NCBI GenBank assembly: GCA_017462985.1
Contig: JAFTQB010000002.1
Coordinates: 1 to 53,075 of the forward strand
Reading direction: 5' to 3'
Length of the DNA: 53,075 nt
DNA from: Clostridia bacterium
Lineage (GTDB): Bacteria > Bacillota > Clostridia > Christensenellales > Borkfalkiaceae
Part shown: piece after piece, positions 12,160-20,095 of the stretch
Layout: every line of letters begins with the position of its first letter
Numbering within the stretch: position 1 is the stretch's first letter
Program-made: the position numbers and the translations under genes
Notes under the pieces: generated by a model
What the model saw: only the letters and a program-made list of their open reading frames with translations
Told to the model about the DNA's origin: nothing
The model's database searches: none

Positions 12160-12543
12160 TTAATCATTCCTACCGAGTTTTCTTTGAAGTAATTCCGTCC
12201 TCATTTTTTGAGCAGTCTCTAATGTTTCGGGCGCATCCTCTTCCAACAATTTATAATAACGCGAAAATACACCTATCGCTACCTGCTCATCTTCTTCAAT
12301 GCAAATCACGGAATTGCCATCATCATCAACATCCAGTAAAAATACTATTGCTTCATCCTCTGATACTCCTTGTATTCCCAACGGCTTCAAAATACAGTAC
12401 AATCTTAATTCACTCTCAACTCTATATGGTATAACAGCAATTTGTTCAAAGGCGATTTGCCTACCAGACTCATCCATCAATACGATAGGTTCTTTGTTAT
12501 CAAAATCAAGCAATACGTCCAATAAATCAATTTCTTCATTCAT
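12160..12543 (-). CDS. DUF1292-family protein
   Basis: A 127-aa acidic cytoplasmic protein resembling the DUF1292 family: an N-terminal stretch of the type VLMDESGRQIAFEQIAVIPY followed by EDEAIVFLLDVDDDG. The function of the family is unknown. The start at 12543 is set by GGAGG eight bases upstream; the in-frame TTG further upstream lies in the ribosome site. It follows the lipoprotein gene by 38 bases and is probably cotranscribed with it. Like that gene it is AT-rich compared with the flanking housekeeping genes. Confidence 0.7.
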   Translation of the reverse strand: MNEEIDLLDVLLDFDNKEPIVLMDESGRQIAFEQIAVIPYRVESELRLYCILKPLGIQGVSEDEAIVFLLDVDDDGNSVICIEEDEQVAIGVFSRYYKLLEEDAPETLETAQKMRTELLQRKLGRND

Positions 12544-12581
12544 AATAAAATCCTCCAAATTTAATTTTTTATCGCCAAATT

Positions 12582-13637
12582 TTATATACCGATGCTTATG
12601 GAACCATCTGAATCATCGGAATCATCGCCGATCGACGAACCAGTCCATGACCCACCTCCATTTGCTCGCCTTATTCCGTATCCCGTCAATTCGCCGTTCG
12701 CAAATCGCAACGCAACATATCCCCCGTCGCTTGTATACCACAAATACATTTCGTATTCTTCCACATAAGTAAAGTTTTCATAATCGTAATCAAGCTCGTT
12801 TTCACTTAAAGCAATTTCCCATTCTTCCGCTGTTACCGTCCGTTTTAAGCTTTCATCTTGACCGCATAAAGTGCATACTCCGCTTGCAAAATTGTGCCCT
12901 GTTAAAGGAAGTTCTTCTCTTTTAAAATATTCGCAAGTTTTACATTCATACCTTGCTGTTCCGTTAAAATCGATGCCGTTAGGAATACAATACTCATTCC
13001 GTGAAACCGCTTCTAATTCGTGCGTATGAGCGGGTACGACCGTTGTTCCGTAATTTGATAAGTTCACTATCTCGCTTCTGCTCGACGTAAAAATTCCTAA
13101 TCTTACAATATATCCATCGGCAAATTGTACGGTATAATACTGCGTTTCACTAATTTGATAAATATATTCTTCCTGTTCTTCTTCATACGCATAATTCCCG
13201 TATTCTTCAAATACCGAACGCATATTGGCTACAATATTAACACATCCTTTTTCTACTGCTTCCTCATAAGTCAAATACATTTGAAAATTGTTTTCTTCTG
13301 TTTTTTGCCCAAGGAGCATATTCCCCTCTTTTTCTGCCGTAAATGCGTACTTATAATCTATTTCAGTCCCATAAAAACCTAATCCAGTGAGCGTAACATT
13401 ATAAAATCTACTGTCATCAAACGCAGCAGTCCATTCTTCCGCTGTTACCGTTCTTTTTACAACGATTTCATCCTCACCAGCCGAGCCTGTTTCGTTCTCG
13501 TCATGGTCTCCGCTTTGTTCGGTATTTGTTTCACTTTCGTTCTCGTTACCGCTTGGAACATCGCAAGCGATCAAGCCAAACGCAAGAAAACAACCGACAA
13601 ACATTACAGCTAAAAACTTAAAAATTTTGTTTCTCAT
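12582..13637 (-). CDS. Predicted lipoprotein with duplicated RTVTAEEW modules and a zinc-ribbon-like motif
   Basis: A 351-aa exported protein of unknown function. Residues 1-24 are a lipoprotein signal peptide: MRNK, hydrophobic core, lipobox LIAC with Cys25 as lipidation site. An acidic Glu/Asn/Ser-rich linker follows. The phrase KRTVTAEEW occurs twice, near residues 61-69 and 265-273, suggesting two related beta domains. Between them HTHELEAV and CKTCEYF...LPLTGHNF...CTLCG form the Cys-pair motif common in surface proteins of gut Clostridia. The C-terminus is Asp/Ser-rich. Expression appears controlled by a long structured leader with an intrinsic terminator. GGAGG precedes the start. Base composition is AT-rich. 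Confidence 0.75.
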   Translation of the reverse strand: MRNKIFKFLAVMFVGCFLAFGLIACDVPSGNENESETNTEQSGDHDENETGSAGEDEIVVKRTVTAEEWTAAFDDSRFYNVTLTGLGFYGTEIDYKYAFTAEKEGNMLLGQKTEENNFQMYLTYEEAVEKGCVNIVANMRSVFEEYGNYAYEEEQEEYIYQISETQYYTVQFADGYIVRLGIFTSSRSEIVNLSNYGTTVVPAHTHELEAVSRNEYCIPNGIDFNGTARYECKTCEYFKREELPLTGHNFASGVCTLCGQDESLKRTVTAEEWEIALSENELDYDYENFTYVEEYEMYLWYTSDGGYVALRFANGELTGYGIRRANGGGSWTGSSIGDDSDDSDGSISIGI

Positions 13638-13649
13638 AAAAGAAACCTC

Positions 13650-13686
13650 CCGTAAAAATATTTTTTACGGCACGAAAAAAGTGCCG
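13650..13686 (-). promoter_or_regulatory. Mutually exclusive hairpins between leader terminator and ribosome site
   Basis: Hairpin B pairs CGGCAC (complement of 13681-13686) with GTGCCG (complement of 13668-13673). It uses the 3' arm of the terminator, so the two cannot coexist. Hairpin C pairs CCGTAAAAA with TTTTTACGG (13650-13670), conflicts with B and abuts the GGAGG ribosome site (13646-13650). This chain of alternatives is typical of attenuators. Confidence 0.5.
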
Positions 13687-13707
13687 CCTCGCTCAGCGAA
13701 ACGACAC
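13675..13707 (-). terminator. Intrinsic terminator inside the lipoprotein leader (attenuator)
   Basis: Leftward, an 11-bp stem GTGTCGTTTCG/CGAGGCGGCAC (with G-U pairs) and loop CTGAG is followed directly by TTTTTT. It lies 38 bases upstream of the lipoprotein start, within its leader, so full-length transcription requires read-through. Confidence 0.75.
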
Positions 13708-13734
13708 CTGTAAAAATGCCCCTCTCGCTTTGCT

Positions 13735-13850
13735 GCGACACAATTTCATTAACAATAAGTTTCGAAAAAACTCATTATTGTAACGCGAAAAAGATACACC
13801 TCTACCAAAGAAGTATATGCGTTCTTTCGAAACCTATGAAATTATGTCGC
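13735..13850 (-). ncRNA. Candidate structured leader RNA (riboswitch-like) of the lipoprotein operon
   Basis: Read leftward from 13850. P1 is 15 bp (13836-13850 with 13735-13749, one G-U pair). Inside it, GTTTCGAAA (13825-13833) can pair with TTTCGAAAC (13759-13767). Next is a hairpin, AACGC/GCGTT extended by ATATACTTC/GAGGTGTAT with loop TTTGGTA (13782-13823). Then ACAATAA/TTATTGT (13775-13781 with 13752-13758) has a loop that contains the second TTTCGAAA copy, giving a pseudoknot. The predicted transcription start coincides with the first base of P1, and a terminator follows downstream. I do not recognise a known riboswitch class. The alternative is a palindromic insertion element. Confidence 0.55.
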
Positions 13851-13856
13851 AACCTT

Positions 13857-13885
13857 ATTTTACCACCTTTTCCTCGTTTTGTCAA
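13857..13885 (-). promoter_or_regulatory. Promoter of the lipoprotein-DUF1292 operon
   Basis: The minus strand reads TTGACA (13880-13885), 17 nt, TAAAAT (13857-13862). Six bases separate the -10 box from the first base of helix P1 of the leader. The leader is therefore about 213 bases long. Confidence 0.9.
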
Positions 13886-13955: not shown

Positions 13956-15155
13956 TTATTGTAAATTTTCCACAAAACGCTTGATCCGCTTCAAGCCCTC
14001 GCAAATATCGCTTTCCGAAAGCGAGTAGGAAAGCCGCAAGCAATCGTCCGCGCCAAAGGAAATGCCGGGGATCGTCGCCACCTTTTCCGCTTCCAAAAGC
14101 GCGTCCGCGAACGCAATCGAACCGTCGATCGTCTTTCCTTGGTAGCTCTTGCCGTACAAGCCGCTCACCACCATCATCACGTAGAACGCGCCGTCCGGTT
14201 CTACCGCCTGTACGCCGTCGATCTCTTTCAAAAGCTCCAAGGTCAGCGCGCGGCGCTTATCAAAGGTATCCACCATTTTTTGCACGTCCGCTTCGGGGGA
14301 AGCGAGCGCTTCGATCGTCGCGTATTGCGCGATCGAGCAAGCGTTGGAAGTTGCGTGGCTTTGGAAAGAATCGATCGCCTTTGCGATATCTTTCGGCGCG
14401 GCAAGATACCCGATACGCCAGCCCGTCATTGCATAAGTTTTGGAAACGCCGTTGATCGTGATCGTCAAATCTTTCATCTTCTCGCTCACCGCCGCAATCG
14501 AGAACGGCTTCACGCCGTTATAGCAAAGCTTTTCGTAAATTTCGTCGGAGAGCACGAAAATGCCCGCTTCTTCGCAAACGGCGGCAATCGCGCGCACCTC
14601 TTCTTCCGTATACACCGCGCCCGTGGGATTGGACGGGGAATTAAAAATAAGCATCTTCGTTTTAGGCGTGATCGTCGCTTTTAATTCCTCTGCCGAAAAC
14701 TTGAATTTATTTTCTTTCTTACAATATAAATATTTCGGCACACCCCCGCACACTTTCACCACTTCGGGATAAGTCAGCCAATACGGCGCGGGAATGATCA
14801 CTTCGTCGCCCTCGTCCAAAATCGCGTAGCAAGCGTTGAAAATGGAATGTTTCGCGCCGTCGGAAACGATGATCTGCGACGGCTCGTAGGAAAGCCCATT
14901 GTCTTTGAGGAATTTTTCGCAGATCGCTTTGCGCAAGGAAAGTAACCCCGAAGACGGCGTATATTTGGTATGCCCGTTATCGAGCGCCGTCTTTGCCGCC
15001 GCAATAATATTATCGGGGGTATTAAAGTCGGGTTCACCGACGCCAAAGGAAACGACGTTTTCGCCCGCCGCTTTCATCGCCTTTGCCTTTGCCGAAATCG
15101 CCAAGGTCAAGGAAGGGGAAATGCTCTTCATTCTTTTTGCAATTCTTTCGTTCAT
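13956..15155 (-). CDS. PLP-dependent class I aminotransferase (aspartate aminotransferase type)
   Basis: A 399-aa fold-type I aminotransferase, probably transferring the amino group of aspartate to 2-oxoglutarate. Signatures: GVGEPDFNTP near residue 40, the SDGAKHS cofactor loop near 97-103, NSPSNPTGAVY, SDEIYEKL, the PLP lysine in SKTYAMTGWRIGYL (near 237) and the arginine in DDCLRLSYS near the C-terminus. The start at 15155 follows GGAGC; an in-frame codon ten residues upstream has no ribosome site. It is transcribed alone from a clear promoter and ends at a strong terminator. The exact substrate within the AspB group is inferred. Confidence 0.88.
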   Translation of the reverse strand: MNERIAKRMKSISPSLTLAISAKAKAMKAAGENVVSFGVGEPDFNTPDNIIAAAKTALDNGHTKYTPSSGLLSLRKAICEKFLKDNGLSYEPSQIIVSDGAKHSIFNACYAILDEGDEVIIPAPYWLTYPEVVKVCGGVPKYLYCKKENKFKFSAEELKATITPKTKMLIFNSPSNPTGAVYTEEEVRAIAAVCEEAGIFVLSDEIYEKLCYNGVKPFSIAAVSEKMKDLTITINGVSKTYAMTGWRIGYLAAPKDIAKAIDSFQSHATSNACSIAQYATIEALASPEADVQKMVDTFDKRRALTLELLKEIDGVQAVEPDGAFYVMMVVSGLYGKSYQGKTIDGSIAFADALLEAEKVATIPGISFGADDCLRLSYSLSESDICEGLKRIKRFVENLQ

Positions 15156-15191
15156 AACAAGCTCCGTTTTTGAAAATTTTTTCACTCGTCT

Positions 15192-16246: not shown

Positions 16247-16276
16247 AGTATATCATATCACCGCGTCGTTTGTCAA
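16247..16276 (-). promoter_or_regulatory. Promoter of the trmN6-like gene
   Basis: The minus strand reads TTGACA (16271-16276), 18 nt, TATACT (16247-16252), 20 bases before the start codon. The -35 box overlaps the first codons of the divergent gerA gene. Confidence 0.85.
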
Positions 16277-17799
16277 TCTTTCGGCGCATAATCCGCGGCA
16301 AAAAAGCGCAAACTGCCCGTGTGAAAAATTTCGTCAATCAATTATCCGAAAACCGAAAATTTTTAGAAAGCGCGCTCCCTGCCGAGGATATTTTGTATTA
16401 TGCCTTTTCCTCCGCCGACGGCGTGGAATGTTTTCTTGCGTACGCCGACGGTATGGTGAACAAACAGCTCCTCGGCGAGCTTGCCGCCGCGCCCTTGCAG
16501 GTAACGGCGTTGAAGCGCGAAAAACCGCAAGAGGACGGCACCGTGTACGAGGTAAATGCGGAACTCATTGCGCAAACGGTGCTTTTCCCCGAAATCAAAG
16601 AAGTAGAAAAAACGCAGGACGCCTTGCGCGAGCTTCTCGATGGGAACACCCTGCTTTTCGTAGACGGTTTAGCTTGCGCGTTCGTCGTGGGGGCGAAGCT
16701 TTTGCCCGTGCGCGCCGTTACCGAACCGCCCACCGACGTGGCGGTGAAAGGTCCGCGCGAGGGATTCATCGAAGACGTGAAAACGAATATGATCTTGGTA
16801 CGCAAGCGCCTGAAAGCCCCCGAACTCAAATTGCAAATGCAACGCGTGGGTAGGCGTTCGGATACGATGGTCTGCGTTTGCTATTTAGAGGGTATTTGCA
16901 ACGATGAGATCCGCAAAGAAGTGGAAAACCGTTTAAAAAAGATCGATATCGACGTCATTCCCGATTCTTCGTATATCGCTACGCTCATTTCCGAACGCCG
17001 ACATTCCATTTTCCGTTCAGTGGGCACGACGGAACGCCCCGACGTATTCGCCGCGAAGCTCGCAGAGGGCAGAGTGGGCTTACTCGTCGACGGCTCGCCC
17101 ATCGCGCTCACGTTGCCTTTCGCCGCCGTCGAAGATTTCCAAAGCAACGAGGATTACTACGTTTCGCCGTTTATGGCTACGATCTTCCGCGCGCTTCGAT
17201 TGATTTCCGTGCTCATCGCGCTCATTTCCCCCGCGCTGTACGTTTGCAGTCAGCTTTTCAAAATCCAGCTTCTCCCCTTGGGGCTGACGCTCACCATCGC
17301 GGAAAGCACCAGCCGATTGCCCCTATCCCCAAGCATGGAAATGTTCGTCGTGCTGTTCGTTTTGGAAGTTTTAAAAGAAGCGAGCATTCGTATGCCCAAG
17401 TACGTGGGAATGTCGCTTTCCGTCGTCGGCGCGCTCGTGTTGGGGGAAGCGGCGGTATCGGCGGGGTTTTTATCCACGCCCACGATCATCGTCGTGGCGT
17501 TTTCGGGGATCTGCTTGTACGCCGTGCCCAATTTCGTGGAAACGGGCAGTATCCTTCGTTGGCTGTTTTTGATCGTCGGCGGTAGCTTCGGCCCGTTCGG
17601 TTTAACGCTTTGTATCGGCTTCGTTCTTTATTATATGCTGTCGGCTGATAATTTCTCGATGCCGCTTCTGGCGCCGTTCGCACCAATGACCCGCTCCGAT
17701 TTAAAGGACGCGCTCGTAAAATACGATATCGCCGCGCTTTCCAAGCGCCCGACGATCTTCGGCAGTAAAAACCGTACGAGAATGAGGGTAAAAAAATGA
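16270..17799 (+). CDS. gerA: Spore germination receptor subunit A
   Basis: GerA-family subunit of a germinant receptor in the inner spore membrane. The 509-aa protein has a long hydrophilic N-terminal half (residues 1-300: NTD with VKGPREGFIEDVKTNMILVRKRL, typical of the family) and a C-terminal membrane domain with about five hydrophobic segments between 305 and 465, including the conserved PLGLTLTIAESTSRLPLSP. The TTG start at 16270 has no clear ribosome site, but gives the family's normal N-terminus; a GTG at 16321 is the alternative. The next gene overlaps by four bases. A forespore promoter is expected, but I could not find one. Confidence 0.92.
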   Translation: MSIFRRIIRGKKAQTARVKNFVNQLSENRKFLESALPAEDILYYAFSSADGVECFLAYADGMVNKQLLGELAAAPLQVTALKREKPQEDGTVYEVNAELIAQTVLFPEIKEVEKTQDALRELLDGNTLLFVDGLACAFVVGAKLLPVRAVTEPPTDVAVKGPREGFIEDVKTNMILVRKRLKAPELKLQMQRVGRRSDTMVCVCYLEGICNDEIRKEVENRLKKIDIDVIPDSSYIATLISERRHSIFRSVGTTERPDVFAAKLAEGRVGLLVDGSPIALTLPFAAVEDFQSNEDYYVSPFMATIFRALRLISVLIALISPALYVCSQLFKIQLLPLGLTLTIAESTSRLPLSPSMEMFVVLFVLEVLKEASIRMPKYVGMSLSVVGALVLGEAAVSAGFLSTPTIIVVAFSGICLYAVPNFVETGSILRWLFLIVGGSFGPFGLTLCIGFVLYYMLSADNFSMPLLAPFAPMTRSDLKDALVKYDIAALSKRPTIFGSKNRTRMRVKK

Positions 17800-18962
17800 A
17801 AAAACAAGCACCCAAGTCTTTAACGAACAAAAATAACGGCACTACGATCAACGCCCGTCAACTATCCCTTTTTCTCGCCTTTTTTCTGCCCGTCGGCAAG
17901 ATTTTGGAGCTTCCCTCTCTCCTTGCCCGCGGCGCGGGCGGCGATCTGCTCCTGCCCGCATTTTTAGGCTCTCTTCTTGAATTTGCCGCGCTTTGCGCCC
18001 TGCTGCTTTTTGCCGCAAGAAGCGAACAAAGCGTTTTCGAACGGTTGGAAAACGCGGTTGGCAAATGGGCGGCGCGCGCCCTTTACGGGCTGTACGCGGC
18101 GTATCTTTTATGTTCTTCTGCGTTGCCGATTTTAGACCTTGAAAAATTTTCCCACGCCGCCTTTTCGGATACCGAACCAACCTTTTTTTCCTTTACGCCT
18201 TTTTTCATTTTAAGCGGCTTTATTTGCACAAAAGCCTTTAAATCGATCGGGCGTTGCAGCGATCTTTCCCCCGCGCTCTTTTTGATCCCCTTTCTCGGCT
18301 TGATCTTATTGAGCGTAAGCGAAGCGGACTTTTCCTCGCTGTTGCCCCTTTTCGAAAAGCCTTTTTCCTCATCGGCAAAAACGCTTCTTCACGCCCTGCC
18401 CCATTTCCCCGCAGGCGGGCTTTTATTGCCGCTGATGAGCGGTTATAAATACGAAAAAGGGGACGCGAAAAAAGTATTGCCCGCATTCGGCGTCGGCAGT
18501 TTGCTTTTTTGGGTTTTTTTAGCCGTCTTTTATTCGGTGTACGGCACGACGGCGGCGCGCGAACATTACGCCCTTGCGAAAATCGCGCAATATTTCCCCG
18601 CCCTTAATTGGATTGGCAGGATCGATTTGCTCCTCGTCTATACGCTCACCATCCAGCTTTTCTTTTTTACGGCGTTGCCCTTACAGCTTTGCACGCATTG
18701 CGTTTGCAAAACGCTTGAAAAGCCATGGCAGGTGCTCGTTTCGGCGGCGCTCAACCTCGCGCTCTTTTTCGCCGTGCTCTTTTTAAACAGGCATTACGAT
18801 AATATATACGAATTTTTTACTCGCTCGCTTTGGTGGGTATTTTTGATCTTTTCCACCGTATTGCCGCTATGCGCTCCGCTGCTTGCGATCAAAAAAGGCG
18901 GAGGCAAGGCTTCGACGAAAGCAAAAAAGGAGGAAACCCAATGCACGCAAAAAACACCGTAA
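17796..18962 (+). CDS. gerB: Spore germination receptor subunit B (permease-like)
   Basis: A 388-aa integral membrane protein of the GerAB endospore germination permease family (APC superfamily), thought to bind the germinant. Roughly ten hydrophobic segments run from residue 20 to 365; the first contains RQLSLFLAFFLPVGKILELP, the usual GerB N-terminal pattern. The C-terminus is a Lys-rich cytoplasmic tail (KKGGGKASTKAKKEE). It overlaps gerA by four bases and gerC by 22 bases, so the three are translationally coupled. The ligand cannot be predicted. Confidence 0.88.
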   Translation: MKKQAPKSLTNKNNGTTINARQLSLFLAFFLPVGKILELPSLLARGAGGDLLLPAFLGSLLEFAALCALLLFAARSEQSVFERLENAVGKWAARALYGLYAAYLLCSSALPILDLEKFSHAAFSDTEPTFFSFTPFFILSGFICTKAFKSIGRCSDLSPALFLIPFLGLILLSVSEADFSSLLPLFEKPFSSSAKTLLHALPHFPAGGLLLPLMSGYKYEKGDAKKVLPAFGVGSLLFWVFLAVFYSVYGTTAAREHYALAKIAQYFPALNWIGRIDLLLVYTLTIQLFFFTALPLQLCTHCVCKTLEKPWQVLVSAALNLALFFAVLFLNRHYDNIYEFFTRSLWWVFLIFSTVLPLCAPLLAIKKGGGKASTKAKKEETQCTQKTP

Positions 18963-20095
18963 GATATTTTCTCGTGATCATCGCCGTGATTCTTTTTTCC
19001 TTTTTTTCCAACGACTTTAACCTTATCAACGTACAAAGCACGGCGATCGTAACGGCGATCGCGATCGATCGCGAAAACGAAGAATTTTCTATCTCGGCGC
19101 AAATCGCAATACCCGCCGCAAAAAGCAGCAGCGGCAAAAGCGATTCGCAGGGTCAAAGCGGCGGGAGCGGCGGCGGGAACGGCTCGTTCGCTTCTATCGA
19201 GGGCAAAGGCGGCACGATCGCGCAAGCAATCGAAGCAATCAACGGAAAAACGGGCTGGTATCCCAAATTGGTGTTTTGCCGATTGCTCATCTTGGGGCAA
19301 AGCCTTTGCGAGAGCAACGTTTTCGACGCACTTGACTATTTTTTACGCGGCGAATACGTCGCGCACGATTGTTTGCTCGCGGCGGCAGAGGGAAAAGCTT
19401 CGGAAATTTTAGCGGCAAAAACGCCGCTTGGAAGCACTTCCTCGCTTGCGATCGAAAAGGTGCTTTCCGATCAAGCCATGCGCGTGGGCGCTTCGCTCCC
19501 GAATACGCTTCGGGAATTTTCGATCAGCTATTTTTCGGCGGCGAAAAGCGGCTATATGCCCATCGTAAAAAAGGAAAAAGAGGGCGAGGACGAAATCGTA
19601 TCCGCCAGCGAAACGGCGCTTTTTATCGCGGGTAAACAAATCGGGAAATTGGATAAACGGGAAACCTTTGCCCTTGCCTGTATCAAAACGCCGCTTCGCC
19701 TCGCGGGCTATTCGGTGGAAAACGAGGGCGCGAGCAACACTCTGACGGTGAAAAATAATCGCAGGAAGCTGAAATTTTTTGTGGACGGCGACCAGCCCAA
19801 AATGGAAATCAAGCTGACCATGTACGCGGGCATTGCAGACGTATCGAAAAGTATGCCCGTCGAGGATATTGCGGATATAGGCGATCTTCCCAAGGGGGTA
19901 TTATCCGTGGCAAGCGAGCAATTAAAAGCCCAACTCAACGGCTTGATCGAAAAATGCCGCGCCCTTTCCTTCGACGCATTCGACGCGATCGGAAAGCTGC
20001 AAAAATACGAACACAAGCATTTTTCAACGCTCAAAGACAGCCTGATCGAGCGTATGCAAGTGAGCTTGACCGTCGATTTTGAAGGAATTAGATAA
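18941..20095 (+). CDS. gerC: Spore germination receptor subunit C, lacking the lipobox
   Basis: Ger(x)C-family protein, third subunit of the receptor, 384 aa. ATG at 18941 follows GGAGG, inside the end of gerB. Family features: the AIVTAIAIDRENEEF opening strand, GRLLILGQSL-like segment (CRLLILGQSL), and a long C-terminal domain ending in SLIERMQVSLTVDFEG. GerC proteins are normally lipoproteins with a Gly-Cys right before the mature start. Here the N-terminal hydrophobic segment (residues 8-22, FLVIIAVILFSFF) runs into SNDFNLINVQS with no cysteine, so this copy should stay anchored by an uncleaved or non-lipid signal. A Ser/Gly-rich insertion sits near residues 62-85. Confidence 0.88.
   Translation: MHAKNTVRYFLVIIAVILFSFFSNDFNLINVQSTAIVTAIAIDRENEEFSISAQIAIPAAKSSSGKSDSQGQSGGSGGGNGSFASIEGKGGTIAQAIEAINGKTGWYPKLVFCRLLILGQSLCESNVFDALDYFLRGEYVAHDCLLAAAEGKASEILAAKTPLGSTSSLAIEKVLSDQAMRVGASLPNTLREFSISYFSAAKSGYMPIVKKEKEGEDEIVSASETALFIAGKQIGKLDKRETFALACIKTPLRLAGYSVENEGASNTLTVKNNRRKLKFFVDGDQPKMEIKLTMYAGIADVSKSMPVEDIADIGDLPKGVLSVASEQLKAQLNGLIEKCRALSFDAFDAIGKLQKYEHKHFSTLKDSLIERMQVSLTVDFEGIR

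Follow-up and report, generated by a model that had tools for sequence, protein, structure and literature searches.

The window analysed here, a stretch of 53,075 nucleotides from the genome of Clostridia bacterium (GCA_017462985.1, contig JAFTQB010000002.1), carries on its minus strand, from position 13885 to position 13638, a leader RNA that very probably acts in cis as a transcription attenuator and belongs to a new riboswitch-like family. In its predicted ON state the hairpin P3 coexists with an antiterminator (AT), and in the OFF state a pseudoknotted helix (LH) coexists with an intrinsic terminator (T). The helices and their coevolution, the promoter, the terminator and the position in front of genes were established by sequence comparison of 162 homologous leaders, with the window element among them.

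All coordinates of the leader and of its genes are given here on the minus strand, and the promoter, P1, the terminator, the competing hairpin and the hairpin at the ribosome site can all be read directly from the sequence. The promoter (13885-13857) comprises the -35 box TTGACA (13885-13880), a 17-bp spacer and the -10 box TAAAAT (13862-13857), the last being part of an extended -10 element, TGG-TAAAAT (13865-13857). The closing helix P1 lies at the expected transcription start and consists of 16 pairs, including one U-G, between 13851-13836 and 13749-13734; its 3' strand, UUGUGUCGCA, has each column conserved in at least 90% of 31 genus representatives. It is followed by the variable helix P2, supported by folding and by arm swaps (13835-13819 paired with 13775-13757), and by P3 (13818-13794), a hairpin of -8.9 kcal/mol supported by pair changes, whose GGUA loop is common in the family and not invariant. 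The 3' strand of P3 and the core CUUUUUCGC (13793-13785) together form the 5' strand of LH (13806-13784), and just 3' of P1 lies the switching strand SW (13729-13709), whose partner is either the LH 5' strand (OFF) or the 5' arm of the terminator (ON). The antiterminator (13729-13695; 13729-13717 paired with 13706-13695, -12.9 kcal/mol, supported by folding and swaps) uses the 5' arm of the terminator (13707-13675; 13707-13696 paired with 13692-13681, -17.1 kcal/mol), which ends in U6 (13680-13675). A third hairpin (13670-13650, CCGTAAAAA/TTTTTACGG) touches the ribosome site GGAGG (13650-13646); a similar one is present in locus L047, and it is at most a possible part of the family. The 213-nt leader folds with -79.4 kcal/mol (z = -7.9), and none of 200 shuffled sequences was as stable.

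The earlier note, which was made from the letters of the window alone, had described a consensus promoter, a start on the first base of a closing helix, a terminator with U6, a hairpin competing with it and a third hairpin at the ribosome site, and each of these features was found again, with the extended -10 element in addition. Its general picture of a structured leader with an attenuator holds for the promoter, the conserved domain, the antiterminator and the terminator, and fails for one part, a pseudoknot between the duplicated TTTCGAAA segments: folding places both copies in the nested helix P2, of which they are the two arms, one in the 5' strand and the other in the 3' strand. The leader precedes a gene for a 351-aa lipoprotein (12582-13637), recognized as such by a regular expression for the lipobox and matching no Pfam family, and, after a gap of 23 nt, a 132-aa gene (12160-12558), which is possibly co-transcribed with it. 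Of the lipoprotein and DUF1292 operon proposed earlier, the lipoprotein stands and the DUF1292 label is weak (18.6 bits versus a Pfam cut-off of 24).

In the mechanism that we propose, transcription would start at or beside the first base of P1, and P1 and P2 would serve as a scaffold in both states. Five strands would form a chain of four mutually exclusive helices, namely P3 (strands 1 and 2), LH (2 and 3), AT (3 and 4) and T (4 and 5). As long as P3 holds, SW would be free, AT could form and RNA polymerase would read through (ON). Opening of P3 would let the core, together with the released 3' strand of P3, capture SW as a pseudoknot; this would block AT, and the polymerase would be stopped at the terminator after about 175 nt of leader (OFF). 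A signal that stabilizes the P1-P2-P3 domain would turn the gene ON, and we take OFF to be the probable default state, given the greater strength of LH. It is in this manner that we infer the leader to switch in the cell, in the direction given and under the action of a signal on the RNA.

By plain DNA search, the genome of the window (77% complete) proved to contain two more copies, and other genomes of the host genus have copies too. Two covariance models were used for wider searches: R1, which describes P1 and P3 only, and R2, which comprises 97 members. With R1, the element was detected in 40 of the 57 genomes of the host genus at E <= 0.01 (35/57 if a best E <= 1e-5 is required), with up to five matches at E <= 1e-5 per genome (G061 and G016), at E <= 0.001 in 33 of the 297 order genomes, and at E <= 1e-4 in 34 of the 391 class genomes; with R2, 53 of the 391 class genomes, in 35 of 223 genera, had it at E <= 1e-6. 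In the phylum samples the genome of the window was the sole match (1/398 with R1 and 1/299 with R2). All these genome counts are lower bounds, because the filters were strict. For the collection of leaders, matches of the genus search with E above 1e-4 were left out, several of them being antisense echoes of true copies, and from the order search sense matches were taken up to E 1e-3; a truncated copy (L043) and a match at a contig end (G073:C87) were left out, and L122, which has too little 3' sequence, does not enter the swap, promoter and SW-sharing counts. A strict pattern of the core matched 27 named stretches, each titled as a Clostridia or Clostridiales bacterium, 17 of which name ruminant-gut samples in their titles and 10 of which name no source; the same pattern gave no match in viral contigs. 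A broader P1 pattern found the leader on five IMG/VR contigs (L242, L243, L244, L245 and L246), where in each case an ORF (65-348 aa) with a ribosome site lies 70-96 nt downstream, so that the leader unit may travel on prophages; a search of plasmids for the leader gave no match.

The pairing of P1 and P3 was assessed on 96 distinct sequences, for which 100 of the 162 loci were taken at a tighter search cut-off, with antisense matches of the palindromic element kept out. In this alignment, which was fitted to the R1 structure so that the counts lean towards it, 92.0% of cells were paired, compared with 78.6% after shuffling, both sides had changed in 21 of 23 pairs, and there were 296 double-change cells versus 86 in shuffled alignments. 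No measure was reached in any of 500 shuffles, and pairing fell to 25.5-51.5% when the partner was slid by 1 to 3 columns. Compensatory changes in P1 had been suggested as support for a structured leader, and in P1 both sides had changed in 14 of the 15 modelled pairs (7/8 in P3). The arms of P2 pair better with each other than with arms swapped across genera; this holds for 153/161 members and 30/31 genera, and for 79/79 when the swaps stay within the host genus.

P1 is also conserved in sequence: in UGCGACAYAA / UUGUGUCGCA the columns reach 90-100% among the 31 genus representatives, except for the Y. This strong conservation is not explained by pairing, and the conserved P1 sequence, with the adjacent AUA, offers the best candidates for a sensor site, be it for a ligand or for a protein. 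It is thus also a point in favour of a variant of the explanation in which the attenuator works in the same way and the sensing is done by a protein or by a trans-acting RNA that binds P1/P3, instead of by direct binding of a small molecule to the RNA. The diversity of the target genes, as would befit a global regulator, agrees with such a sensor; however, P1 tolerates compensated base changes, and regulator-like genes downstream are single cases (one ROK and one HTH_3 in 135 proteins, among the matches listed). We regard a protein or RNA sensor as a serious possibility, if on balance a doubtful one, and since the attenuator mechanics would be identical, it is compatible with the switch proposed above.

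The central element of that switch is SW, which is complementary both to the P3 3' strand with the downstream core (LH, 10-22 bp among members) and to the 5' arm and loop of the terminator (AT). In the window the LH pseudoknot candidate pairs 13806-13784 with 13729-13709 (-21.2 kcal/mol). With segments that were not optimised, the loop pairs better with its own SW than with SW swapped across genera in 157 of 161 members and in 31/31 genera (p = 9e-10); in a later LH swap test the segment was picked on its own sequence, and that statistic is to be distrusted. For SW and the terminator, the own combination was better in 149/161 members and 29/31 genera, and with other segments taken for AT in 159/161 members and 31/31 genera. 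A stricter comparison of the SW halves with the whole loop favoured the own sequence in 131 and 144 of the 161 members (24 and 26 of the 31 genera), and swaps within the host genus gave a weaker effect (61/79 for LH and 65/79 for AT). The core and SW differ in sequence between loci and are matched to each other: CTTTTTCGC pairs with GCGAGAGG in the window, TTCTTCCA with TTGGAAGG in L110 and GTATTTTCTCTG with CAGGGAGGATAC in L172. At least five nucleotides of SW are claimed by both LH and AT in every one of the 161 members (mean 11.3), and it is this sharing that makes P3, LH, AT and T a chain of mutually excluding neighbours. Hence, by sequence and coevolution, the leader has the terminator before the start codon and the mutually exclusive antiterminator by which transcription attenuators are recognized, and, as is typical of riboswitches, its structured domain is conserved and covaries.

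The energies suggest that the order of folding is important. In 160 of 161 members LH exceeds P3 in strength, with LH picked on its own sequence and the cost of the pseudoknot ignored. Nested folding of the window leader gives -67.9 for P3 with T versus -64.6 for P3 with AT, so that P3 does not enforce the ON state by energy alone, and since T is favoured over AT even when P3 is present, the outcome must depend on timing while the RNA is being made. Only about 4 nt link P1 to SW, and therefore a complete LH may be strained in three dimensions if P1 and P2 stay intact; a shorter pseudoknot between the core and SW, with P3 intact, is possible. A weak, A+U-rich P3 opposed to a strong LH is also what one would expect of an RNA thermometer or another physical sensor, in which temperature or ions would set the balance between P3 and LH and no ligand would be needed. 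We consider this unlikely, as the conserved P1 sequence and the adjacent AUA suggest a specific binder, and 17 of the 27 named matches come, by their titles, from ruminant-gut samples, where temperature is fairly constant.

The promoter and terminator provide independent tests of the attenuator, because the covariance models contain neither of them. A -10 box stands just before P1 in 160 of 161 members (window included), in its extended form in 138/161, and a TTG -35 is present in 151/161; among 149 scored members the spacer is 17 bp in 126, and exactly 5 nt separate the -10 box from P1 in 125. A terminator-like hairpin with a T-run follows in 156/160 members. In 122 of 151 members a same-strand ORF with a ribosome site begins no more than 260 nt away, at a median distance of 79 nt, whereas on the divergent side, taken as a control, such an ORF was found in 8 of 82; the other 29 of the 151 have no clear same-strand ORF. 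Eight new loci found by the R2 class search, outside the R2 training set, all have the extended -10 element and in all of them LH and AT are better than the swaps (in L261, LH only marginally, by 0.5 kcal/mol), and the same rule detects an ORF with a ribosome site behind just four of the eight. The position of the element and its promoter and terminator pattern fit a leader and not a dispersed repeat. Leader-peptide attenuation was considered and rejected: the longest closed ORFs in the leaders of the 161 members are short (median 17 codons, maximum 51), and a Shine-Dalgarno-like start was found in only 5/161.

That a promoter and a terminator come with every unit, that tandem units exist and that some units lack a near ORF could also mean that the element is an independent small RNA gene, which lies before other genes by chance. 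This is improbable in view of the excess of same-strand over divergent ORFs at so short a distance, and the conserved competition between AT and T would be pointless in a fixed small RNA. Still less probable is an element that modifies RNA polymerase and involves no switch by alternative folding. The put and EAR RNAs act by processive antitermination and cause read-through of distant, unrelated terminators; the start near +1 and the terminator directly after the domain in 156/160 members would suit such an element, but the complementarity of SW to the terminator coevolves, as would be expected of a hairpin antiterminator, and no Rfam match was obtained. Transposition of a MITE-like palindrome, the alternative named in the earlier note, which could account for the several copies in many genomes, the terminal inverted repeats, the tandem copies and the five IMG/VR copies, is extremely improbable, because the copies mostly keep a set orientation to genes and a set distance from them (122/151 same-strand versus 8/82 divergent) instead of showing the orientation-independent insertion of MITEs, the internal arms coevolve and P2 sequences differ among copies.

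In 128 of the 162 members an ORF with a good ribosome site lies no more than 260 nt away, and a lipobox was flagged by regular expression in 64 of these 128, in line with the earlier expectation that such leaders would precede similar lipoproteins; among the 42 members of other orders (L165-L172, L200-L233) it was flagged once, doubtfully. A Pfam scan of 135 downstream proteins cut to 340 aa (27 of the 162 members were left out, eight without an ORF and 19 with ORF calls judged doubtful by eye) found, in the best 25 of 56 families, BspA-type LRR_5 in 45 proteins, LRR_8 in 17, collagen repeats in 8, the List_Bact repeat in 8 and a zinc ribbon in 6. In the genome of the window, the second copy precedes a 1131-aa LRR lipoprotein and the third a 539-aa LRR protein with a zinc-ribbon match below the cut-off. 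The remaining targets are small genes without an assigned role and nuclease-like or HicAB-like genes. One HicB match is among those listed in the Pfam tally, and by eye, leader copies stand before HicA-like and HicB-like genes at L226:536-760 and L230:1888-2229. The targets are thus heterogeneous; in the host order they lean to surface display, and they point to no single metabolic pathway. A tentative extension of the model, to which we give somewhat less than an even chance, is that the leaders form a new riboswitch class, confined to Clostridia as sampled, in which a global small molecule, with a second messenger or an envelope-related metabolite as the candidate ligand, would govern a concerted choice of displayed surface proteins, namely lipoproteins, BspA-type LRR proteins and collagen-like proteins.

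The motif was not found in the literature searched, although it could be among the 3,161 candidates that PMC8040213 describes from the human microbiome, so that it may already be in print. An Rfam match would have removed the novelty claimed earlier, and no credible one was obtained: the Rfam 15 scan of the window detected just a tRNA elsewhere, a permissive scan of the leader gave matches far below the cut-offs, a scan of 18 relatives gave two matches, neither on the leader, and in six relatives scanned at E up to 1 a single match overlapped a leader (MIR5998, 24.9 of 180 bits). T-box leaders are distinguished by the specifier loop of Stem I and by the T-box antiterminator sequence. They share with the present family the competition of terminator and antiterminator in a leader and a GG in a loop. 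Unlike them, neither the leader nor its relatives had a T-box match among all 4227 models of the library, which presumably include that of the T-box, the GGUA is not invariant, and no amino-acid theme is seen downstream in the best 25 of 56 Pfam families.

Also related in kind are riboswitches that act on transcription by strand exchange, such as ZTP, in which, according to PMC10907184, the helix of a pseudoknotted 5' domain competes with the terminator or the antiterminator. The decision by strand exchange during transcription (PMC10907184) would be common to both, whereas the leader has no match to an Rfam class, would use a five-strand relay through P3, LH, AT and T, and has a domain whose first bases lie at about +1, just after a conserved promoter. 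Comparative searches have also yielded orphan riboswitch candidates (PMC2864571 and PMC11109978), which are likewise covarying leader RNAs with an expression platform; the targets of the present leader differ in leaning to surface proteins, and the word 'lipoprotein' does not occur in the main text of either source. The mobile attenuators of transposons (PMC2965389) are similarly repeated within genomes, but no transposase is among the downstream genes here, in the best 25 of 56 Pfam families. On these comparisons we call the leaders a putative new family of the strand-exchange riboswitch-like kind, marked by an unusually fixed promoter and the five-strand relay, and class it as a new family within a known kind because riboswitch membership proper needs ligand binding.

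Should the model hold, bacteria across a class, among them ruminant-gut lineages represented by metagenome assemblies, would have in common an RNA switch that Rfam lacks and that sets the expression of many surface proteins. Since its parts are clear and can be broken, its logic is testable in vitro without culturing the organism, and the identity of the ligand would name a signal for surface remodelling. R2 can already be used to annotate the family.

Several observations concern the surroundings of individual copies. Tandem leaders, with starts about 210-335 bp apart, are present at L109:183-294 and 516-627, L200:2501-2611 and 2726-2837, L209:88-197 and 301-416, and in G697 on contig C33 at 6609 and 6924; in L109 the first of the two leaders is followed by an apparent degraded duplicate of the start of a zinc-ribbon gene. 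A Gut-1 RNA (RF01706), an orphan RNA described from the human gut, lies at L165:1196-1272, and a leader copy follows it on the same strand after about 230 nt. In the window, positions 16270-20095 hold a spore germination operon (Pfam GerA, Spore_permease and Spore_GerAC). Just upstream of the leader, at 13941-13906, a 12-bp inverted repeat runs into a T-run; it is probably the terminator of an aminotransferase gene identified by Pfam (13956-15185) and, if real, would shield the leader from upstream transcription.
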